DNA of 64,000 bases from Natronorubrum halalkaliphilum. Its GTDB lineage: Archaea > Halobacteriota > Halobacteria > Halobacteriales > Natrialbaceae. Shown piece by piece: positions 7,526-33,687 of this stretch. How positions within the stretch are numbered: the stretch's first letter is position 1; every line of letters starts with the position of its first letter. The position numbers and the translations under genes are program-made. Where the stretch lies: NCBI RefSeq assembly GCF_009834785.1, contig NZ_WUYX01000060.1, forward strand, positions 1 through 64,000. The letters run 5' to 3'. The notes beneath the pieces were generated by a model, which saw nothing but the letters and a program-made list of their open reading frames with translations, made no database searches and was not told where the DNA came from.

Positions 7526-9043
7526 ATGTCCGAAACCGGGGCGGAGTCCCGTCCGCTGGTCCGACAGTTTCCCGATCCAACAACCGCGTCGAACGTTCGG
7601 TACAACCCGTCGCTCGCGGAGCTTCGCGATCTCGCGGCCGACGACGAGACGACGACCGAGTTCGGGTCGCCGTCGTACGTCAGCGAGTATCGATCTCGGA
7701 GCGCCGATCGGACGAAAAACACCGTCGACGACGAGTTCACCGACCGTGACCACGAACTGGTCGACGAAGCGATCGATCTCGCCGCCGATCGCGAGATGCT
7801 CTGTGTCGACCGGCTCATGGGACGTCACTCCGAGGCTACCTTCTGCTGTCGGCTCTTCGTTCCCGTCGAGTACGCCCGAATCGCGCTGTCGTGGGCGAAG
7901 CTGTTCGAGCCGACCGACGGACGCGACCCCGACCTCTACACCGTTCAGGTACCCGACTACGACGAAACGGCGATCCGCGTACTGCCGGACGAAAACGTGA
8001 CGACCGTACTGGGCAGCGACTACACCGGCGAGGCCAAGAAGTCGTTCCTGCGGCTGTTCATGTTCAATCTCAAACAGCAGGGCGGCCTCGGTCTCCACGC
8101 CGGCAGCAAGCGCGTCCGCGTCCGCGACGCCGACGGCGACGGCGAACTGCAGACCGTCGGTCAGGTGTTCATGGGTCTCTCGGCGACCGGCAAGTCGACG
8201 CTAACCTCCCACGGCTGCTGGCTCGAGGGCCCCGAAGACGCCGCGATGTTACAGGACGACGTCTGTGGCCTCCTGCCGGACGGCTCGGTACCCGGCAGCG
8301 AGGGCAAGGGGCTGTTCATCAAGACCATCGGCCTCGACGAGGCGGAACAGCCCGAACTGTACGAGGCCGCGACCGACGACTCCGCGATCCTCGAGAACGT
8401 CGCCGTCGACGACGACGGCACGGTCGACTTCGATGAGGACCGGTACACCTCGAACTCCCGGGCGATCGTCCAGCGCGAGTGCCTCGAGAGCGCCGACGAG
8501 GGGATCGACCTCGAGCGGATGGATCAGGTCTTTTTCATCACCCGCAATCCGCTGATGCCGCCGGTCGCGAAACTCGACGACGAGCAGGCCGCCGTCGCGT
8601 TCATGCTCGGCGAGTCGATCGAGACCAGCGCCGGCGATCCGTCCAGAGCCGGCGAATCGATCCGCGTCGTCGGCACGAACCCGTTCATCATCGGGCCCGA
8701 GGGCGAGGAGGGGAACATCTTTCAGGACCTCATCGACGAACTCAACGTCGAGTGTTACGTCATCAATACGGGGTATCTCGGCCAGCAGTCCGCGGATATC
8801 GGCGTCGAAGAATCCGTGACGATTCTCACCGAAGCCGCCCGCGAGACGATCGAGTGGACCGACGACGATCGAACCGGGCTGACGATCCCCGACTCCGTCC
8901 CCGGCCTCGATATCGAGGCCTACTACGTTCCGGACCACGTCGAGAACTACGACGAGGCAGTCGCGGACCTGCGAGCCGAACGTCGCGAGTATCTGGCGCA
9001 GTTCGACGAACTCCGCGACGAGATCCTCGACGCGGTCTACTGA
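7526..9043 (+). CDS. pckA: Phosphoenolpyruvate carboxykinase (ATP)
   Basis: 505 residues. The enzyme converts oxaloacetate and ATP to phosphoenolpyruvate, CO2 and ADP at the entry to gluconeogenesis. Visible family marks: the P-loop GLSATGKSTL near residue 216, the metal-binding LQDDVCGL about 30 residues later, the TRNPLMPPVA segment, and the expected length for the ATP-dependent form, although the N-terminal third is divergent. The ATG follows TTTATAC (7494-7500) by about 26-29 bases. The gene stands alone, with inverted repeats upstream that may serve carbon-source control. Confidence 0.92.
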   Translation: MSETGAESRPLVRQFPDPTTASNVRYNPSLAELRDLAADDETTTEFGSPSYVSEYRSRSADRTKNTVDDEFTDRDHELVDEAIDLAADREMLCVDRLMGRHSEATFCCRLFVPVEYARIALSWAKLFEPTDGRDPDLYTVQVPDYDETAIRVLPDENVTTVLGSDYTGEAKKSFLRLFMFNLKQQGGLGLHAGSKRVRVRDADGDGELQTVGQVFMGLSATGKSTLTSHGCWLEGPEDAAMLQDDVCGLLPDGSVPGSEGKGLFIKTIGLDEAEQPELYEAATDDSAILENVAVDDDGTVDFDEDRYTSNSRAIVQRECLESADEGIDLERMDQVFFITRNPLMPPVAKLDDEQAAVAFMLGESIETSAGDPSRAGESIRVVGTNPFIIGPEGEEGNIFQDLIDELNVECYVINTGYLGQQSADIGVEESVTILTEAARETIEWTDDDRTGLTIPDSVPGLDIEAYYVPDHVENYDEAVADLRAERREYLAQFDELRDEILDAVY

Positions 9044-10399: not shown

Positions 10400-10422
10400 C
10401 TCGCGCACGGGTTGTGACGGGT

Positions 10423-10911
10423 ATGGCTGGAACCATCGAAGTGCTCGTTCCGGGTGGCCAGGCCAACCCTGGCCCGCCGCTCGGTCCCGAGCTCGGACCG
10501 ACACCCGTCGACGTGCAGGCAGTCGTACAGCAGATCAACGATCAGACGGAAGCGTTCGACGGCACGGAAGTGCCCGTCACCGTCGATTACGACGACGACG
10601 GCTCCTTCGAGATCGACGTCGGTGTCCCACCGACGGCGGCGCTCGTCAAGGACGAGGCCGGTTTCGAGACCGGCAGCGGCGAACCCCAGAAGGACTTCGT
10701 CGCCGACCTCTCCGTCGATCAGGTCAAGAAGATCGCCGAGCAGAAACACCCCGACCTGCTCGCCTACGATACGATCAACGCCGCGAAGGAAGTCGTCGGC
10801 ACCTGCGCCTCGATGGGCGTCACCATCGAAGGCGACGACGCTCGAGAGTTCAAGGAGAAGGTCGACGGCGGCGAGTACGACGACGTGCTCCTCGACGGCG
10901 CCGAAGCGTAG
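10423..10911 (+). CDS. rpl11: 50S ribosomal protein L11
   Basis: 162 residues. MAGTIEVLVPGGQANPGPPLGPELGPTPVDVQAVVQQIND is the highly conserved L11 N-terminus, whose Pro-rich segment contacts the GTPase-associated centre of 23S rRNA. The C-terminal RNA-binding domain holds QVKKIAEQKHPDLLAYDTINAAKEVVGTCASMGV. Translation from the GTG at 10414 is possible, but the ATG is favoured by the TATA position and family start. It is separated from L1-L10-L12 by a 6-kb cluster on the opposite strand. Confidence 0.96.
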   Translation: MAGTIEVLVPGGQANPGPPLGPELGPTPVDVQAVVQQINDQTEAFDGTEVPVTVDYDDDGSFEIDVGVPPTAALVKDEAGFETGSGEPQKDFVADLSVDQVKKIAEQKHPDLLAYDTINAAKEVVGTCASMGVTIEGDDAREFKEKVDGGEYDDVLLDGAEA

Positions 10912-10966: not shown

Positions 10967-11938
10967 CTACGGCGTTTGTGTTTCTTTGATCCGCGCCAGA
11001 ACGTCCAGATTGTGCGCGACGAAGACGAGGTCGCCGGCCTCGAGTTCGCGGCGACGGCGCTCGAGCCAGCGCGTTCGCTCGTCGGCTTCGAGAGCGTCCG
11101 ACGCAACGTCCGCGAGCGCCTCGTCGATCGTCTCGAGGACGTGCACAACCACCCGTTTCTCGTCGCTAGAGTAACCGCCGTCGGCGGGCACCACGACCCA
11201 GTCCGAGCCGCCGGATGCGAGTACGTCCCAGTCGGATCGCGAAAGCGTCGCCAGCAGCGCCGACCCGGCGCGGCTGCGTCCGCCGTCCCGAATCTCGTCC
11301 ATGTGGCGATGGTATTGGCGTTCGATCCGCTCGTCCAGTCGGTCTCGAGGGGCGAACGTGGTCCCGCCGTTGAACGTGATCGGCGCGTAGCAAACGCCGC
11401 CGTCGACGAGTAGTCCCTCGAGCGCCGGAATCGCGTTCTCGAGGTCGACGATATCGAGTAGTGCGGCCGCAATGACGGCGTCAGCTCGATCATCGATATC
11501 GAGGGCGTCGGCGACCTCGAGGGTGATCTCGAGACGCTGATTCGAGTCCGAAGCCGGTTCGTCCGCGGGTCGCGCGACGAGAGTCGTCGATTTCGGAACG
11601 TCGTCCCCGCCCCCGCCCTCGACCGTCGCCCCGGCGGGCGACTCGAGCCACTCGACATCGTACCCCGTCGACTCGAGGTGCGCGGGAACCAGTTCTCGAG
11701 CCCGTTCGATACTGGCCGCGTCGCGGTCGACGGCGCGGTACGAAACGCGGTCCGGGAGCAGGCTCCAGTCGGCGAGCCGCGCGATCATCGTACCGACGCC
11801 GGCTCCGAGTTCGACGATCCGCACGGGCTCCCCGCGAGCCGAAAGCGCCGTCGCGAACTGCTCGAGGACCCGACGGTTCAGTGCGCGGTCGTCGAGCGTT
11901 CGCTTGGCCTCGAGGTACGGTTGTGCGGACTCGATCAC
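10967..11938 (-). CDS. SAM-dependent methyltransferase of the PTPS/glycosyltransferase cluster
   Basis: 323 residues. Class I methyltransferase motif I is IVELGAGVGTMIARL (about 40-54), followed by an acidic post-I position in YRAVDRDAASIERA and by ADAVIAAALLDIVD later. The N-terminus (LEAKRTLDDRALNRRVLEQF) is helical. A long Arg-rich tail near 300 precedes VAHNLDVLARI. It is last in the minus-strand unit, and its start overlaps the stop of the glycosyltransferase gene by ATGA, so the two are translationally coupled. The acceptor is unknown; the company suggests a glycosylated small molecule or lipid. Confidence 0.8.
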   Translation of the reverse strand: MIESAQPYLEAKRTLDDRALNRRVLEQFATALSARGEPVRIVELGAGVGTMIARLADWSLLPDRVSYRAVDRDAASIERARELVPAHLESTGYDVEWLESPAGATVEGGGGDDVPKSTTLVARPADEPASDSNQRLEITLEVADALDIDDRADAVIAAALLDIVDLENAIPALEGLLVDGGVCYAPITFNGGTTFAPRDRLDERIERQYHRHMDEIRDGGRSRAGSALLATLSRSDWDVLASGGSDWVVVPADGGYSSDEKRVVVHVLETIDEALADVASDALEADERTRWLERRRRELEAGDLVFVAHNLDVLARIKETQTP

Positions 11939-13071
11939 GGCGAGTCACCTCCGTTGGCGTCGTCGGCTTCGTCGAGACGCCGGCCCAGAAACGCCCGTAT
12001 TTCGTCCATCGTTTCCGCCCACGAGGGATGCGCGGCCGCCGTCTCGAGCGCCCGCATCCCGAGCGTTGCGAGCCGATCGCGGTCGGCCGCGAGCGCGCCG
12101 AGTCGGTCCGCGAGCGAGGACGGATCGGTCGGCTCGACGACGACCCCGTTCCGGCCGTCCGCGACGAACTCGCTCGCGCCGCCGACGCTGCCGGCGACCG
12201 GGACGACGCCGTACTCCATCGCCTCGAGATGGACCATTCCGAACCCTTCGTAGCGGGCCGGCACCGCGAGAACGTGCGAACGCTCGAGGATCGACTCGAG
12301 TCTGGCGGTCTCGACCTTGCCGGTGATCGTTACCCGGTCGCCGAGTTCGAGCGCACCGATGCGGTCGCGGACGTCGCGAACGTACGCGGGGTCGGCGTCG
12401 TGTCTGCCGACGACGGTCAGGTGCCAGTCACGACCCGCCTCGTCGATCCGCGCGAGCGCCTCGAGCAGCGTCACGAGGTTCTTTCTCGGGACGAGGGTTC
12501 CGACGAACGCGACCTCCAGCGGGTCCGCGCGAGCGCGCTTCGCGACGGCCTCGCTCGAGAGCGCTGGTTCCTCGTGGCGTCCTGCGGGCGGGGCGACGAG
12601 CGTGGGGAGGTCGGTGTCGACGAGCGCCGTCGTCCGCTCGCGGGTGTAACCGCTCGTACAGATCGCCGCGTCGACCGACTCGAGGTAGCGGCGTTCGCGC
12701 GCCCGCACTGCCGGGTCGTCTTTCGTCGGGTCGGGCGATCGAAGGAGGTGAACCAGCGAGACGATCGTCTCCGGCCCCTCGAGGTGGGGGTTGTGTTGGA
12801 CCAGCGCGGGATGGCAGAGTTCGTCCTGTAAGAGCACGTCGTACGGTCGGTCCAGGCGCTCGCGGATCGACGGGGCGGTGTCGCTATTGGGGCGGGCAGA
12901 GGTCGTTCGGTCGGAAACGACTCCGGCGGGATCGTCCTCGAGCCGCCGAGGGATCGAGATCACGTCGACGTCGTCCCCTCGATCCTCGAGGGCGGAAACG
13001 AGTTGACGGTCGTAGCGGTAGCCGCCCGACGTTTGCTCGAGACCGCCGTAGACGACCAGTCCGATCTTCAT
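11935..13071 (-). CDS. Family 4 glycosyltransferase
   Basis: 378 residues with the GT-B fold. The N-terminus MKIGLVVYGGLEQTSGGYRYDRQLVSAL is the acceptor-side domain. VAFVGTLVPRKNLVTLLEAL (about residues 196-215) starts the donor-side domain, and AVPARYEGFGMVHLEAMEYGVVPVAG holds the E(x7)E nucleotide-sugar motif. The enzyme would transfer a sugar from an NDP-sugar, with retention of configuration, at the cytoplasm or membrane face. It lies 50 bases downstream of the PTPS homologue and overlaps the methyltransferase start. The substrate is not predictable. Confidence 0.85.
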   Translation of the reverse strand: MKIGLVVYGGLEQTSGGYRYDRQLVSALEDRGDDVDVISIPRRLEDDPAGVVSDRTTSARPNSDTAPSIRERLDRPYDVLLQDELCHPALVQHNPHLEGPETIVSLVHLLRSPDPTKDDPAVRARERRYLESVDAAICTSGYTRERTTALVDTDLPTLVAPPAGRHEEPALSSEAVAKRARADPLEVAFVGTLVPRKNLVTLLEALARIDEAGRDWHLTVVGRHDADPAYVRDVRDRIGALELGDRVTITGKVETARLESILERSHVLAVPARYEGFGMVHLEAMEYGVVPVAGSVGGASEFVADGRNGVVVEPTDPSSLADRLGALAADRDRLATLGMRALETAAAHPSWAETMDEIRAFLGRRLDEADDANGGDSP

Positions 13072-13121
13072 TGTGGGTGTGGTTGTCGTTGTGACCGTGA
13101 CTGCGAGTGAGAGCCTGATCC

Positions 13122-13505
13122 TCAGAGCGACCGTTCGTGGGCCACGCGGGCTACGTCGTCCTCTTCGATCTCGATCCTGAGTTTGGTCACTCCCTGGGCT
13201 TCGAGTTCGAGGCGCTCGAGCAGTCGGTCGCCGAAGACGCGCGCGAATCGCTCGGCGCTCGGGTTCGCGCCCTCGAATGCGGGGAGGTCGTTGAGGGTTC
13301 GGTCGCGGTAGAAGTCAGCGAGGTGATCCATCGCGGCGGTCAGATCGTCGATATCGACGAGATACTCGTACTCGTTTAGCTCCGGGCCGCGAACGGTCGC
13401 GTCGATCGTGAACCGATGGGAGTGTGGGTCTCCTTCGGGCCCCGGAGCGGGCACCGTCAGATAGTGCTGGGCGACGACGGTGCGGGAGACGGAGACGGTG
13501 TACAT
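13122..13505 (-). CDS. 6-pyruvoyltetrahydropterin synthase homologue lacking the catalytic cysteine
   Basis: 127 residues of the PTPS/QueD fold. The zinc ligands are present as His14 (AQHYL) and His28/His30 (DPHSHRF). The stretch between them (YLTVPAPGPEGDP) has no cysteine, whereas true PTPS and QueD use a Cys there; the canonical QueD at 33208-33687 has it. The late Glu-rich KLRIEIEEDD segment matches the family's final strand. The protein therefore likely binds a pterin or related ligand but catalyses a different step. It sits between the dehydrogenase (95 bases upstream) and the glycosyltransferase in one transcription unit. Confidence 0.8.
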   Translation of the reverse strand: MYTVSVSRTVVAQHYLTVPAPGPEGDPHSHRFTIDATVRGPELNEYEYLVDIDDLTAAMDHLADFYRDRTLNDLPAFEGANPSAERFARVFGDRLLERLELEAQGVTKLRIEIEEDDVARVAHERSL

Positions 13506-13599
13506 GCTCGAAGCGACGACGGGGAGTGACTAAATTCCGGCCGTGATCTGCAGTTAGTGAGCCAAGCGGGAGTAGCGGCTGGTTGAAGCGGGGAGCGGT

Positions 13600-14613
13600 T
13601 CAGTCGTAGGTCAACAACACCTGAATCGCCTCGTCGGGCCGTTCCTCGAGCAACTCGTAGGCCTCGCCGGCGTCCTCGAGCGGAATCTCGTGGGTGAACA
13701 GCGACGAGACCTCGAGCCGTCGGAGCCAGTCCCAGGCGAGGTTGTGGCGGCGCTCGCGAGACCACCGTCCGGAGAGGCGCGGATCGATCGTGCTCACCTG
13801 ACTGCTTCGGATCTCGATCCGGTCGCGGTGAAAGCGCCCGCCGAGGTCGAGACGCGCCGGCTTCGTGCCGTACCACGAGCCGACGAGCACGCGCCCGTCG
13901 AAACCGGTGGTGGCGATGGCGTCGTTCAACGCGTCGGGATCGCCCGAGAGTTCGTAGGTCAGGTCCGCGCGAGTGCCGGCGATCTCCTCGAAGTCCGCGG
14001 GGAACGCGGCCTCGGCCGGATCGATCGACCGATCCGCGCCGAACGATTCGGAGCGCCACCGCCGCTTCGCGTACGGCTCAAACGTGACGAGCGTCTCGAG
14101 GGGAGTCCGTGCGAGCAGCGCCGTCGTCAACAGGCCGACGGTACCCTGCCCGACGACGGCGGCGTGTTCGCCCAGAAGCGGTTCGCCATCGAGCAGAAAG
14201 GTGACCGCCGTCTCGAGGTTCGCGAACAGGGCGGCTTCCCGCGCCGAGACGCCCGCGGGAATCGTCAGGAGGTCGTCCGGCCGAGCGAGGAAGTGGCTCT
14301 CGTGGCCGTTGTACGCGAAGACCTGCCGCTCGAGCCAGTCGTCGGCGACGTTCTCGCCGACGGCGGTGACCTCGCCGACCGCGGCGTAGCCGTACTGGAG
14401 CGGAAAGGAGAGGTCCCCGTCGAAGGCCTCGAGTTCCTCGTCGGCCGGGAGGTCGGTGGGCGCCTCACCGCGGTAGATCAACCCCTCGGTGCCGGCGCTG
14501 ATCGCCGAGACCGTGGTTCGAACGCGGACTTCTTCCGGCCCGGGGTCGGGAACCGGTCGGGACCTGACGGCGACCGTCTCCGGGCCCGTGAAGTAGAGCG
14601 TGCGCGCGCTCAT
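13600..14613 (-). CDS. Medium-chain dehydrogenase/reductase without zinc cysteines
   Basis: 337 residues. The N-terminal GroES-like domain (RPVPDPGPEEVRVRT) carries SAISAGTEGLIYRG where zinc alcohol dehydrogenases have the catalytic Cys. The protein has no cysteine at all, so neither the catalytic nor the structural zinc site exists. The NAD(P)-binding Rossmann motif is VVGQGTVGLLTTALL. This variant resembles the BchC-like MDR group. It may oxidise or reduce an alcohol on the cluster's product. The frame is open to 14712, but the Met at 14613 begins the family-typical sequence. A strong hairpin lies 150 bases upstream. Confidence 0.8.
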   Translation of the reverse strand: MSARTLYFTGPETVAVRSRPVPDPGPEEVRVRTTVSAISAGTEGLIYRGEAPTDLPADEELEAFDGDLSFPLQYGYAAVGEVTAVGENVADDWLERQVFAYNGHESHFLARPDDLLTIPAGVSAREAALFANLETAVTFLLDGEPLLGEHAAVVGQGTVGLLTTALLARTPLETLVTFEPYAKRRWRSESFGADRSIDPAEAAFPADFEEIAGTRADLTYELSGDPDALNDAIATTGFDGRVLVGSWYGTKPARLDLGGRFHRDRIEIRSSQVSTIDPRLSGRWSRERRHNLAWDWLRRLEVSSLFTHEIPLEDAGEAYELLEERPDEAIQVLLTYD

Positions 14614-14762
14614 CGCTTGGCTCGCCACCGGCGGCGGGAAGACTGGGGGTGTTCGGTTCGATGACGACGGACGTAATCGGTCACGCTGGATCGACGTTCC
14701 ACGGGGGGCCACTTGGTCGTTTGTACGATCGAGGGAAGTACCGCCCCCGTAGAAACGGGTAT

Positions 14763-14803
14763 GCCGTCCGTACGGCTGATCCTAGGGGATCCGTACGGAC
14801 GGC
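14763..14803. promoter_or_regulatory. Very strong hairpin upstream of the dehydrogenase gene
   Basis: GCCGTCCGTACGG (14763-14775) is the exact reverse complement of 14791-14803. Within the 15-base spacer, ATCC and GGAT also pair, leaving a TAGG loop and a CTG bulge, so the total stem is 17 bp. Each arm contains the palindrome CCGTACGG. It lies in the spacer between the CDP-alcohol transferase and dehydrogenase genes on the minus strand. It could be an operator, an RNA-processing signal or an attenuating structure. Confidence 0.6.
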
Positions 14804-14847
14804 GACGAGCCACTGTCGGAGTGGCCCTTGTGCGGAAGAACGACCGA

Positions 14848-15627
14848 TCACGGGCGTGCGGATGGCCCGACGCGGCCGGTCACGGCGAGCCAGTCCCAGC
14901 AGAAGTTGGCGAGAAACGGGACCACCAGAAGGGTTGCGAACGCGCGCGAGACGGTGTCACCGGGGATCGGCAACAGCGCGAGCCAGACCGCGAGCATCGC
15001 CAGCCCTCCGAGCGGCCGGCGAAGCCGGTTCGGAGGGAGGTCGAATACGGGCTTGCTCTGCCGCTCTCGCCACCACTGACCGGCGACGAACAGGTATCGT
15101 GCGACGGCGACGGCGAGAAAGAACCGCGGCAGTGCGCCGTCGACGACGGCGACGAGCGTCCCGACGAGGACGACCAGCCCGTCCGTCTCGACGTCGAGTC
15201 GTGCGCCGAAATCGGTGACGGTGTCAGTCGCTCTGGCGATCGCTCCGTCGACCGCGTCGAACGCCGCTGCGGCGGCGAACAGCGCCGCCGGGACCCACGC
15301 GATTCCCGACGGCGGCTCCGTTCCAACGAAGCCCGCGAGCACGGCGACTGCCGCACCCCGAGCGACGGTCACCCACGTTGCGATTGTGACGGGTCGATTC
15401 GCCGGTCGCCGTGTGCGCTCGAGACCGCCGAGCAGCCGGTAAACGAACGCCGATTCGAGCGTCAGCATCACGCCGACGGCGACGAGGAAACCGGGCGGTG
15501 GACCGTCGGTCCACAGCGACTCGAGGGCGACGACCGCGAGCGCGACCATCGCTGCGTTTCCGGCGCTAATGCGAGCCCACCGCGAGCGCGCCCGCCGACG
15601 AACGGTCAGGACCGAGTCGTCAGTCAT
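14848..15627 (-). CDS. CDP-alcohol phosphatidyltransferase family membrane enzyme
   Basis: 259 residues with about six membrane helices. The catalytic signature DAVDGAIAR, GARLDVETD fits DxxDGxxAR(x8)GxxxDxxxD completely. It would transfer a phospho-alcohol group from a CDP-activated donor. It differs from the archaetidylserine synthase at 5953-6678 by a basic N-terminal tail (VRRRARSRWARI) and a late position of the motif (about residue 128). It probably belongs to the biosynthetic cluster downstream, where it could build or use a lipid carrier. Donor and acceptor are unknown. Confidence 0.8.
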   Translation of the reverse strand: MTDDSVLTVRRRARSRWARISAGNAAMVALAVVALESLWTDGPPPGFLVAVGVMLTLESAFVYRLLGGLERTRRPANRPVTIATWVTVARGAAVAVLAGFVGTEPPSGIAWVPAALFAAAAAFDAVDGAIARATDTVTDFGARLDVETDGLVVLVGTLVAVVDGALPRFFLAVAVARYLFVAGQWWRERQSKPVFDLPPNRLRRPLGGLAMLAVWLALLPIPGDTVSRAFATLLVVPFLANFCWDWLAVTGRVGPSARP

Positions 15628-15741
15628 CGCCGTGTCCCTCCTCGAGGGAGTCTACTCGAGCGGTCTCCCGGGGCCAAAGAGTGCCGAGAGGGGAGAAGAC
15701 GGGTACGGGTGCAGAAGGGGCCTGTAGCAGGGTGTACGCGA

Positions 15742-16116
15742 TCACTCACGGCGATAGAGCACCACCAGTGCGACGAGTAACAGGGCCTGTGCGATCTTAT
15801 CGACGGCCTCGAGTCCCGAGAGGTCACCCACGCCGGCGGGCCGATTGAGCACGTACCAGAGGACGACCTGTGCACCGGTGAACGGAATCCCGAGCAGGTA
15901 GACGAGCCGGCGGCGGTAGTCCAGTACGACGAGCACGACGCCGAGGCCGAAGCCGGCGGTCGCAACGAGAAAGGCACCGCCCATCCAGTGGGGGAGAAAG
16001 CCGAGACCGAGCACCAGGTGGACGGCGGCGGTCACGACCGCCAGTCCGATCCCCACCCAGTGTCGCGTCGAGAGCGGCTCGAGGCCGTCACCGAGTCGGT
16101 CGCTCGAAGCCGTCAT
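15742..16116 (-). CDS. Small four-helix membrane protein of the cluster
   Basis: 124 residues with four hydrophobic stretches (about 20-37, 45-63, 70-88, 101-120), and with HWVGIGLAVVTAAVHLVLG and YRRRLVYLLGIPFTGAQVVLWYVLN as recognisable parts. I recall similar uncharacterised haloarchaeal DUF proteins. It lies 114 bases upstream of the CDP-alcohol transferase gene on the same strand. Its role is unknown. Confidence 0.7.
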   Translation of the reverse strand: MTASSDRLGDGLEPLSTRHWVGIGLAVVTAAVHLVLGLGFLPHWMGGAFLVATAGFGLGVVLVVLDYRRRLVYLLGIPFTGAQVVLWYVLNRPAGVGDLSGLEAVDKIAQALLLVALVVLYRRE

Positions 16117-16167
16117 ACTGGCGTTATCAACAGGGGTCGAAAAACACCTTTCGCCGAAGCGGTCGGC

Positions 16168-16776
16168 CTAAATCTTGTTCGCAGGGGGAACGGTGCGTTC
16201 GTCGGGTTGGGTCGTTCCACCGGACCGGAACAGGACGCGAACCCCAGCGCCGACGCCGAGTGCGCCGGCTACGATGGCGGCGAGGATGGTAGTCGCCACC
16301 GAGACGCCGACGAGGCCGCTGAGGACGCTTCCGACGATGACGCCGGCCCAGAGCTGGTCGCGGCCGAGTCGCGTCGCGATGGATTGGCCGATGGCAACGA
16401 AGCCGAGCACCGTCAGTATCGGCAGTACCGTCGCGCCGATGATGACGACCGGAATTCCGAAGAACGTGCCGAGACTCGTGCCGATGATCAGGTACCCCGT
16501 GGCCGTGATTCCGCTGACGATGAGGAGGCCAGGCAGGCCGATGCAGAGCGAAATGACCGGACTTCGGCGGGACGTTCCGACCGTCTTCGGCCCGTATCCT
16601 TGAGCGAGTCCGAGAAAAACCATCGCGACGACGAGCGTCGCGCCGAACTGGATTCCCGCTCGCTCGAGCGCGCCGAGCGTCTGGTACGTTTCGAAACCGA
16701 CACCGCTGAGCGCGAGCGGTACCACCCACTCAACGGCGGCTATCTCGAACCCCGTATAAAAATCTGCTGGCCACAT
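16168..16776 (-). CDS. Membrane protein with five to six helices, function unknown
   Basis: 202 residues. Hydrophobic stretches run at about 12-28, 44-60, 74-94, 100-130, 141-160 and 163-180. Gly- and Ile-rich helices alternate with short loops, such as GYGPKTVGTSRRSP. No transporter or enzyme motif was found. It is first in the minus-strand run that ends with the methyltransferase, 51 bases before the next gene, so it may be cotranscribed. The start Met is placed by the hydrophobic onset. Confidence 0.65.
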   Translation of the reverse strand: MWPADFYTGFEIAAVEWVVPLALSGVGFETYQTLGALERAGIQFGATLVVAMVFLGLAQGYGPKTVGTSRRSPVISLCIGLPGLLIVSGITATGYLIIGTSLGTFFGIPVVIIGATVLPILTVLGFVAIGQSIATRLGRDQLWAGVIVGSVLSGLVGVSVATTILAAIVAGALGVGAGVRVLFRSGGTTQPDERTVPPANKI

Positions 16777-17115: not shown

Positions 17116-17748
17116 ATGGCAGATTCGGATATTGAAACCGCAGTGGCTCGCGCACTCGAGGAGTCGCCCGATCGGAACTTTACCGAGACGGTCGACCTCG
17201 CGATTAACTTGCGCGACCTTGACCTGAACGAACCGTCGAACCGTGTAGATGAGTCTATCGTCCTGCCGTCCGGAACCGGCCAGGAAACCCGTATCGTCGT
17301 TATTGCCGAGGGTGAAACCGCAGTCCGTGCCGAGGAGGCAGCGGACGAGGTCCTCTCGGAAAGCGACGTGGCCGATCTGGACGACGACGAGGCCAAAGAT
17401 ATGGCCGACGAGACGGACTTCTTCATCGCCGAAGAGGCGATGATGCAAGATATCGCCCGGCACCTGGGTACCATTCTCGGTCCCCGGGGGAAGATGCCGG
17501 ACCCGCTCGCGCCCGACGACGACGTCGTCGAGACCGTCAACAGACTCAAGAATACCGTGCAGCTTCGCTCCGGTGACCGCCGAACGTTCCACACGCTCGT
17601 CGGCGCCGAAGATATGGATGCCGAAAAGATCGCCGACAACATCGACGTCATCCTGCGACGACTGCACGCCGACCTCGAGAAGGGCCCACAGAACATCGAT
17701 GCCGTCTACGTAAAGACGACGATGGGGCCGTCTCAGGAGGTGGCCTAG
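17116..17748 (+). CDS. rpl1: 50S ribosomal protein L1
   Basis: 210 residues. It has the two-domain L1 fold with the conserved RNA-binding stretches [17 protein letters not shown] at the N-terminus and [11 protein letters not shown] (about 115-125) in the middle. It forms the L1 stalk of the large subunit and in archaea also represses its own mRNA. GGAGGTGA precedes the ATG by four bases. The stop is followed after one base by the ATG of rpl10, so the two are coupled. Confidence 0.95.
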
Positions 17749-31662: not shown

Positions 31663-32400
31663 CTATGTTCCGTCGGCGTACGACGGCCGCTCGGCGTACT
31701 CGATCGGATCGCGAACGCCAATATTCTGGAACGCCTGCAGGCGGAACGCACACGCATCGCAGGTCCCGCAGGCGGGTTCGTTCTCGCGGTAACAGCTCCA
31801 GGTGTGTTCGTAGGGTACCTCGAGTTCCACACCTCGCTCGGCGATATCGGTCTTCGACCACTCGACGAACGGCGCTTCGATCGCGAGTTCCGTCTCCGGC
31901 TTCGTTCCGACGTCGACCACCCTTTCGAAGGCCTTGAAGAACTCGGGCCGACAGTCGGGATACCCCGAGAAATCCTCGCTGTGTGCGCCGATGAAAACCG
32001 CCTCGCAGTCGTTGGCCTCCGCGTAGGAGACCGCCATCGAGAGCAGGTTCGCGTTCCGGAACGGGACGTACGACGACGGGATTTCGTCGCTCGCCAAGTC
32101 CGCGTCGTCGACGTCCATTTCGTCGTCGGTGAGACTCGAGTCGCCGATGGCCGAGAGATGGCCGGTCTCGACCTGCAGGAAGTTCGCTGCGTCGAACTCG
32201 TCAGCGAGTCGGCGGGCGCACTCGAGTTCGCGATTCTCGGTGCGCTGGCCGTAGGAGGTGTGCAGGGCGTAGATTTCGTAGCCGCGTTCGCGGGCCACCG
32301 CGGCGGCGGTGGCGCTGTCCATTCCGCCCGATAGGAGGACAACGGCGCGTTTGGAAGTCGATTCGTCGGTCGCGGATTCGGACATCGTATCGTCGGTCAT
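31663..32400 (-). CDS. queC: 7-cyano-7-deazaguanine synthase QueC
   Basis: 245 residues. VVLLSGGMDSATAAA is the PP-loop that binds ATP, and ALHTSYGQRT the following strand. VPFRNANLLSMA and EHTWSCYRENEPACGTCDAC hold the C-terminal zinc site (four Cys within 15 residues). QueC converts 7-carboxy-7-deazaguanine and ammonia to preQ0 in the route to archaeosine at tRNA position 15. It is the last gene of queD-queE-queC, 29 bases after queE. Translation may begin five codons downstream, at a second Met. Confidence 0.95.
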   Translation of the reverse strand: MTDDTMSESATDESTSKRAVVLLSGGMDSATAAAVARERGYEIYALHTSYGQRTENRELECARRLADEFDAANFLQVETGHLSAIGDSSLTDDEMDVDDADLASDEIPSSYVPFRNANLLSMAVSYAEANDCEAVFIGAHSEDFSGYPDCRPEFFKAFERVVDVGTKPETELAIEAPFVEWSKTDIAERGVELEVPYEHTWSCYRENEPACGTCDACAFRLQAFQNIGVRDPIEYAERPSYADGT

Positions 32401-32429
32401 CGTGTGATCTGAATGGGCAGTCGCAGTCG

Positions 32430-33206
32430 CTACGTCTCGGGTGCGTCGTTCCAGAGGTCGACGTGCAGCCGTGGTGTGTATCGGAAGCCGTGGTCCATCG
32501 CCAACCGCGCGACGCGGTTGCGGGTCTCCTCGAGGCGCGCTTGCGTGGCTCCCTCGGGCATAAGCAGGACGTCGTCGTCACGGATCCGCGCGTCAGTCAT
32601 CTCGCGAAGTTCCGCCAACAACTCCAGAATCTCCGGCACGTCCTCGTCGTCGGTGACGACGAACTTCAGCTGGAACTCGTAGCTCTCGACGAGGCGGGAG
32701 AGCGCCTCGAGATCGATCCGGTCGTTCTCGTGGCGTTGTGCCCACTCGCCGTCACCCTTCGGATCGCGCTCGGGCGTCGGCGTACTGCTCTCGAGTTTCG
32801 GACTGATCGAGGCGAGATCGATCGGCGCGTCGCGATGGATCGTCCCGTTGGTCTCGACGGTGGTGTGATACCCCCGCTCGTCGAGCGCCTCGAGCAACTC
32901 GACGCTTTCCTCGTGAATCAGCGGTTCGCCGCCGGTGAGGACGACGTGTTCCGCGTTCTCGTGGGATTCGATCGTCGCGATGATCTCCTCGAGATCCTGC
33001 CAAGCGTGGGTCGGCTCCCAGGAGGTGTGATAGGAGTCACAGAACCAACAGCGAAGGTTACAGCCGCTCGTACGGACGAACACCGATGGAACGCCGGCGA
33101 GCGTTCCCTCGCCTTGCAGCGAGTAGAATAGTTCGTTAATCGGGAGCCCCTTGCCCGCAGCGTCGTCGTCGGTCTCCTCTCGATCGACAGAGTCGGAGAC
33201 GGGCAT
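32430..33206 (-). CDS. queE: 7-carboxy-7-deazaguanine synthase QueE
   Basis: 258 residues. It is a radical SAM enzyme with SGCNLRCWFCDSYHTSWEP, the shortened CxxxCxxC cluster loop typical of QueE. GLPINELFYSLQGEGTLAGVPSVFVRTSGC precedes it, and VLTGGEPLIHEE binds SAM. It rearranges carboxytetrahydropterin to carboxydeazaguanine. The ATG at 33206 lies one base after the queD stop (TGA A ATG), which is preferred over the Met at 33227 inside queD. Confidence 0.95.
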   Translation of the reverse strand: MPVSDSVDREETDDDAAGKGLPINELFYSLQGEGTLAGVPSVFVRTSGCNLRCWFCDSYHTSWEPTHAWQDLEEIIATIESHENAEHVVLTGGEPLIHEESVELLEALDERGYHTTVETNGTIHRDAPIDLASISPKLESSTPTPERDPKGDGEWAQRHENDRIDLEALSRLVESYEFQLKFVVTDDEDVPEILELLAELREMTDARIRDDDVLLMPEGATQARLEETRNRVARLAMDHGFRYTPRLHVDLWNDAPET

Positions 33207-33207
33207 T

Positions 33208-33687
33208 TCAGAACCGGCCCCCGCCACAGAGTTCGCTGGTTTCGTTGACCTGAACCGCGACGTCGGTGACGGTTTCGGGAAGTGCGTCCGCGAGTTTTCG
33301 CTCCAGAATGACGCTCATCACCTCCGCCGTCGGCGGCTGCTCGAGAACGATGACCGCGTCGTCGTCACCCGCCGCTTCGAACGCCTCGACGAGGGGGTCG
33401 CCGGCCTCGAGCAGGAACATGTGATCCCACTCGTCTATTACCTCGGTAATATCGCCTTTGTCGGCGACCCACCCCGCTTCGGTCAGGTCGCCGGTGACGG
33501 TAACGGCGACCTCGTAGTTGTGGCCGTGGGGACGCGAACACTTCCCGTCGTGGTGAAGTAATCGGTGACCCGCACTGATTCTGATCGGTCGATCACGGCC
33601 GACGTGGAGGACGCGCTCGGTCCCGATAACCGCGTCAGCGCCGTCCTCAGAGACCCCGCGTTCGGCACCATCGATTCGGTTAGTCAT
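33208..33687 (-). CDS. queD: 6-carboxytetrahydropterin synthase QueD
   Basis: 159 residues. Zinc ligands are His41 (SAGHRL) and His54/His56 (PHGHNY). The catalytic Cys50 lies between them in DGKCSRPHGH, as expected for QueD. VNETSELCGGGRF closes the domain. It turns dihydroneopterin triphosphate into carboxytetrahydropterin, the first committed step to archaeosine. It is the first gene of the operon. CCTTAAGTA on the minus strand (about 33709-33717) is centred about 25 bases before the ATG. Confidence 0.95.
   Translation of the reverse strand: MTNRIDGAERGVSEDGADAVIGTERVLHVGRDRPIRISAGHRLLHHDGKCSRPHGHNYEVAVTVTGDLTEAGWVADKGDITEVIDEWDHMFLLEAGDPLVEAFEAAGDDDAVIVLEQPPTAEVMSVILERKLADALPETVTDVAVQVNETSELCGGGRF

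Follow-up and report, generated by a model that had tools for sequence, protein, structure and literature searches.

A probable biosynthetic gene module around a cysteine-less PTPS homologue is common to haloarchaea and several bacterial groups

Seven minus-strand genes in a 64,000-nucleotide stretch of Natronorubrum halalkaliphilum (contig NZ_WUYX01000060.1, positions 1 to 64,000; the whole stretch is called the window here) make up the haloarchaeal version of a probable biosynthetic module that is widely conserved, being common to haloarchaea and several bacterial groups. They encode two membrane proteins, a CDP-alcohol phosphatidyltransferase (CDP-AP), a medium-chain dehydrogenase (MDR), a PTPS homologue, a family 4 glycosyltransferase (GT4) and a methyltransferase (MT) (Table 1). 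A reading made from the letters alone (the sequence-only reading) had listed the genes in this order, and all seven open reading frames were confirmed. We consider it probable (about 0.6) that the module draws on an early GTP-derived intermediate of the riboflavin/F420 route to make a dedicated small molecule.

Conservation of the module in haloarchaea

The module was followed in 61 related haloarchaeal genomes. The PTPS gene is present in 37 of these relatives and absent from 24. MDR and MT each accompany it in 35 of the 37 and occur in none of the 24 others (Fisher 5e-15 for both), and the corresponding numbers for CDP-AP are 31/37 and 0/24 (Fisher 1e-11). PTPS and MDR co-occur even when they lie far apart in the genome (G020, G021, G049). 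Within 8 kb of PTPS at 42 haloarchaeal loci, MT was found 38 times, MDR 36, GT4 35, CDP-AP 29 and DUF7475 26 times, with GT4 directly downstream of PTPS at 32 loci. Rarer companions at the same distance were the 202-aa membrane protein (12 loci), the archaeal GTP cyclohydrolase (GCH) IIa (9) and a creatininase-family protein (3). The sequence-only reading had proposed a neighbourhood search outside this strain as its check; the module proved to be kept in haloarchaea and several bacterial groups, although 24 relatives are without it, and this conservation in other genomes excludes a chance arrangement.

In the window and in at least ten relatives the module lies between the genes for ribosomal proteins L11 and L1. 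Here it splits the L11 gene (10414-10911) from L1-L10-L12 (17116-19183), and the L11-L1 interval is 6.2 kb, as compared with approximately 1.0-1.5 kb in eight relatives lacking PTPS. Other relatives carry the module on large replicons recorded as plasmids. On Haloarcula marismortui pNG700 (L170 9066-9439) the module PTPS reads as two pieces and may be broken or mis-sequenced. A Natrarchaeobaculum plasmid (L169 7240-10458) holds a decayed module, of which GCH IIa and MDR alone remain, with an IS5 transposase just downstream.

The module in bacteria

Among solved structures, SCO6650 of Streptomyces coelicolor (PDB 3d7j; function unassigned) is the best match to the window PTPS, over its full length (7.6e-11). 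Near-identical Streptomyces genes (up to 98%) sit in the same MDR-PTPS-GT4-MT order, and in the window the cysteine-less PTPS likewise directly follows the cysteine-free MDR and precedes GT4 and MT. The two proteins differ in that identity is only ~32%, and that the haloarchaeal copies keep the third zinc histidine and carry Glu instead of Ala at the position of the catalytic cysteine. A genome-contig scan with SCO6650 as the sole query gave Streptomyces matches only, and other phyla were sampled via plasmid records and a phylum draw.

The order MDR-PTPS-GT4-MT was found in Thiodictyon, Microbacterium, Streptomyces, Methylosinus, Peteryoungia, Rhizobium, Neorhizobium and Agrobacterium, while Palleronia and Rhodobacteraceae SC52 have no GT4 directly after PTPS. 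The suggestion in the sequence-only reading that this is an old module present in actinobacteria was substantiated: MDR, cysteine-less PTPS and GT4, usually along with MT and CDP-AP, are grouped in Streptomyces, Microbacterium and other actinobacteria, and also in rhizobia, Methylosinus and Thiodictyon. Several rhizobial modules also hold CDP-AP, GCH II, the reductase RibD, a flippase-like membrane protein, a sulfatase and cytochrome b561. In the bacterial sample, 45 of the 48 PTPS genes that lack the cysteine adjoin an MDR, compared with 0 of the 29 that have it (Fisher 4e-18). Three genes on Streptomyces plasmids (L151, L156, L158) encode cysteine-less PTPS without an MDR, beside cupin, MBL-fold, MEKHLA or YbaB genes; they look like orphan paralogues. 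In a joint tree of MDR and PTPS, four well-supported groups were obtained, with haloarchaea placed beside two actinobacterial genomes (L218 and L225) whose module PTPS carry Glu at the cysteine position, the haloarchaeal-type signature. No described cluster of this kind was found in a literature search, which covered open-access texts only and is therefore weak evidence.

The PTPS homologue lacks the QueD active-site residues

Membership of the window PTPS in the fold family PF01242 is clear (77.1 bits, gathering score 22.4). It shares the T-fold, the zinc histidines and the pterin-anchor Glu with QueD, PTPS-I and PTPS-III (COG0720), from which it differs in lacking the catalytic cysteine and the Asp-His pair, and in its gene partners. 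Glu stands at the position of E. coli Cys27, and Arg-Asp replaces Asp70-His71, so that none of these QueD residues is retained. At the cysteine position, 40 of 42 haloarchaeal module sequences have Glu, and nearly all bacterial ones have Ala. The pterin-anchor Glu is present in 42/42 haloarchaeal sequences and invariant across the aligned module sequences. The zinc histidine is found in every haloarchaeal sequence at one of the three sites, and in all but one at each of the other two.

The genome has a second PTPS gene (33208-33687) with the cysteine motif KCSRPHGH. Together with QueC and a radical-SAM QueE-like gene (31663-33687) it forms a complete-looking archaeosine precursor set, and the ordinary QueD role is thus already filled. 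Against NCBIfam TIGR03367 (QueD), the cluster PTPS scored 40.8 bits and this canonical QueD 74.8, both below the cut-off of 89.25. The absence of cysteine noted earlier for PTPS and MDR was upheld, with 0 Cys in each.

A probable GTP-derived entry point

Linked GTP cyclohydrolases, a creatininase-family protein and the RibD reductase point to a GTP-derived start of the product. Two unrelated cyclohydrolases occupy the same place, GCH II in bacterial modules and GCH IIa in haloarchaeal ones, and seven relatives possess a pair of GCH IIa genes, one of which lies inside the module in every case. At the position of E. coli RibA Tyr105, the GCH II of Streptomyces modules has an aligned Met. The loci with Met all have a creatininase-family gene, and no RibD was found at them (79/79 loci), and where Tyr occupies this position, RibD is present and creatininase is not (9/9 loci). 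SCO6655, with Met120, presumably stops at the formylated product.

The activities of the cyclohydrolases and of a creatininase-family formamidase have been established by others. GCH IIa yields the formylated product, as PMC8305020 states in citing the Methanocaldococcus enzyme, and the creatininase-family protein BrbF deformylates 2-amino-5-formylamino-6-ribosylamino-pyrimidinone phosphate (AFRPP) in Sinorhizobium and Brucella (PMC9478397). The creatininase-family protein of the Streptomyces modules matches ArfB weakly, and MftE and creatininase more strongly, so that we can only infer its activity. Relatives of all three enzyme types of the early riboflavin/F420 pathway (ArfA, a GCH IIa; ArfB or BrbF formamidase; ArfC/RibD reductase) occur inside modules. 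In contrast to that pathway, the annotated modules hold PTPS, MDR, GT4, MT and CDP-AP, and no lumazine or riboflavin synthase. Judging from these linked genes, the module proteins may act on AFRPP, on its deformylated form (DARoPP) or on the ribityl form.

Dehydrogenase and methyltransferase models

The MDR model (pLDDT 74.8) has an ordinary MDR fold (4oh1, Z 29.1, root-mean-square deviation 3.0, 308 aligned residues), and its homologues are annotated elsewhere as 'zinc-binding alcohol dehydrogenase'. Its best NCBIfam match is BchC, the bacteriochlorophyllide hydroxyethyl dehydrogenase (9.7e-20). An assignment as BchC was rejected, since the TIGR01202 score, 70.9 bits, lies below the cut-off of 291.25, and, in contrast to the setting of BchC, no chlorophyll genes were seen in the annotated modules. 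MT gave only sub-threshold Methyltransf matches in Pfam. Its model (pLDDT 67.5) was closest among the compared PDB chains to 3mgg (Z 15.7, root-mean-square deviation 3.1, 235 aligned residues), and the lower-ranked matches are general small-molecule methyltransferases; the model is too weak for a substrate to be named. Neither of the two predicted structures names a substrate.

Proposed pathway and alternatives

In the pathway that we propose, GTP would be opened to AFRPP or DARoPP, in this strain by the household archaeal GCH IIa, the only one in the genome (C48:41663-42397), and elsewhere by a cyclohydrolase that the module itself brings. A creatininase-family enzyme would then deformylate AFRPP and/or a RibD-type reductase would reduce the ribose; these enzymes are module-encoded in bacteria and presumably household ones here. 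The cysteine-less PTPS would bind the pyrimidine or pterin-like ring via its conserved Glu and remodel the side chain, with zinc involved in archaea and without the cysteine chemistry of PTPS/QueD. MDR would oxidise or reduce the side chain, GT4 and MT would decorate the molecule, and CDP-AP may couple it to a lipid phosphate. The analysis shows the conservation, co-occurrence and order of the genes and the residue state of the cyclohydrolase and PTPS; the chemistry beyond the pyrimidine is inferred, as is the product, which would be glycosylated, often methylated and possibly lipid-linked. The lipid step is the weakest, because a whole actinobacterial group is without CDP-AP by profiles, and we hold lipid linkage to be less probable than the GTP-derived branch. 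A bolder proposal, which we regard as speculative and rather unlikely, is that the product is a redox cofactor, pterin- or flavin-like and anchored to a lipid, that haloarchaea and bacteria have in common. It would be glycosylated and methylated, an LPG-synthase-like membrane protein would flip it, and the cytochrome b561 of some rhizobial and Thiodictyon modules would use it.

Several observations weigh against a GTP-derived branch of this general form. The co-occurrence counts are phylogenetically non-independent. A linked GCH IIa occurs in only 9 of the 42 haloarchaeal loci and no GTP cyclohydrolase is linked to the window cluster, RibD was not detected in the tested Streptomyces loci or in the haloarchaeal loci, and the link between Met and creatininase belongs essentially to one Streptomyces lineage. 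One zinc histidine is missing from PTPS of bacterial group I. Finally, many other actinobacteria have RibD-MDR-PTPS-GT4 only by profile search, so that neither methylation nor attachment to a lipid would be a feature of every module.

The same reduced actinobacterial loci, without CDP-AP or MT by profile, would suit a soluble glycosylated pterin of the biopterin-glucoside or cyanopterin kind. Pterin glycoside synthesis uses PTPS, a reductase and a glycosyltransferase, a set that the module resembles; PTPS and MDR would stand in for the canonical PTPS and sepiapterin reductase, GT4 would add the sugar and MT a methyl group, and CDP-AP would be a separate membrane-lipid gene. We find this doubtful. 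The linked cyclohydrolases are GCH II and IIa, not GCH I, so that dihydroneopterin triphosphate, the usual PTPS substrate, would not be supplied; moreover, the catalytic cysteine and the Asp-His pair are gone, and CDP-AP tracks PTPS among the relatives as counted above. Loci without CDP-AP or MT, and those in which GT4 is detached or not found near PTPS, could also mean that two neighbouring units merely co-travel, one for a lipid or glycan (CDP-AP, GT4, MT and the flippase-like protein) and one for a pyrimidine or pterin (GCH, creatininase or RibD, PTPS and MDR). This appears less probable still, as the minimal actinobacterial core retains GT4 together with RibD-MDR-PTPS, and MT and CDP-AP were never seen without PTPS in the 61 genomes.

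PTPS could also be a folate enzyme like PTPS-III, or a spare QueD for the archaeosine precursor, with unrelated neighbours. PTPS-III, which replaces FolB in making 6-hydroxymethyl-dihydropterin, has Glu in place of the cysteine, as do the 40 haloarchaeal copies, and these copies score weakly as QueD. Yet the bacterial module copies have Ala at this position, the Asp-His pair is lost, and the co-occurrence with MDR, MT and CDP-AP is near-perfect, and PTPS-III was rejected on these grounds. A spare QueD was rejected because Cys27 and Asp70-His71 are replaced and the window already holds the canonical set with QueC, the QueE-like gene and a cysteine-containing QueD. We regard either role as very improbable.

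Genes and flanks

The active-site motifs are intact in CDP-AP (D..DG..AR.{8}G...D...D), MT (ELGAGVG), GT4 (EX7E) and MDR (GxGxxG); the full motif together with the PF01066 match identifies the first of these as a CDP-alcohol phosphatidyltransferase. MDR starts at 14613, the first Met of MSARTLYF, and has 337 aa. The overlap of GT4 and MT reads GTGA and not ATGA as earlier stated. The close gene order described before holds for this pair; gaps of 50-231 bp separate the remaining genes, which limits tight coupling to GT4-MT. The DUF7475 protein is a probable accessory to the module. The 202-aa membrane protein gave no family match in a Pfam search and, found at 12/42 haloarchaeal loci, is probably peripheral to the pathway. 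A gene for an ATP-type phosphoenolpyruvate carboxykinase family protein lies nearby (7526-9043).

Table 1. Genes of the module and its flanks in the window (TM, transmembrane).
Feature	Position	Strand	Features and matches
Class I SAM-dependent methyltransferase (MT)	10967-11938	-	motif ELGAGVG; GTG start overlaps GT4 stop
Family 4 glycosyltransferase (GT4)	11935-13071	-	PF00534 1.8e-35; EX7E motif at 275
PTPS homologue	13122-13505	-	PF01242 1.5e-21; without catalytic Cys and Asp-His pair; 3 Zn His and pterin-anchor Glu kept
Cysteine-free medium-chain dehydrogenase (MDR)	13600-14613	-	PF00107 (ADH_zinc_N) 1.5e-07; MDR fold
CDP-alcohol phosphatidyltransferase (CDP-AP)	14848-15627	-	PF01066 (CDP-OH_P_transf) 1.2e-13; catalytic motif at residue 124; ~6 TM segments
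DUF7475 small membrane protein	15742-16116	-	PF24287 4.5e-09; 4 TM-like segments
202-aa membrane protein	16168-16776	-	4 TM-like segments; subset of relatives
Ribosomal protein L11 gene, left flank	10414-10911	+	PF00298
Ribosomal protein L1 gene, right flank	17116-17748	+	PF00687

Implications

Many genes that now bear the label '6-carboxytetrahydropterin synthase' or 'zinc-binding alcohol dehydrogenase' are probably misannotated. The deposited structure of one PTPS relative had no function assigned to it; this protein has constant gene partners in both archaea and bacteria, and these partners point to its substrate class. The pathway is directly testable in laboratory Streptomyces, and a membrane-linked product, should that be its nature, would represent a lipid or membrane cofactor of a new kind.

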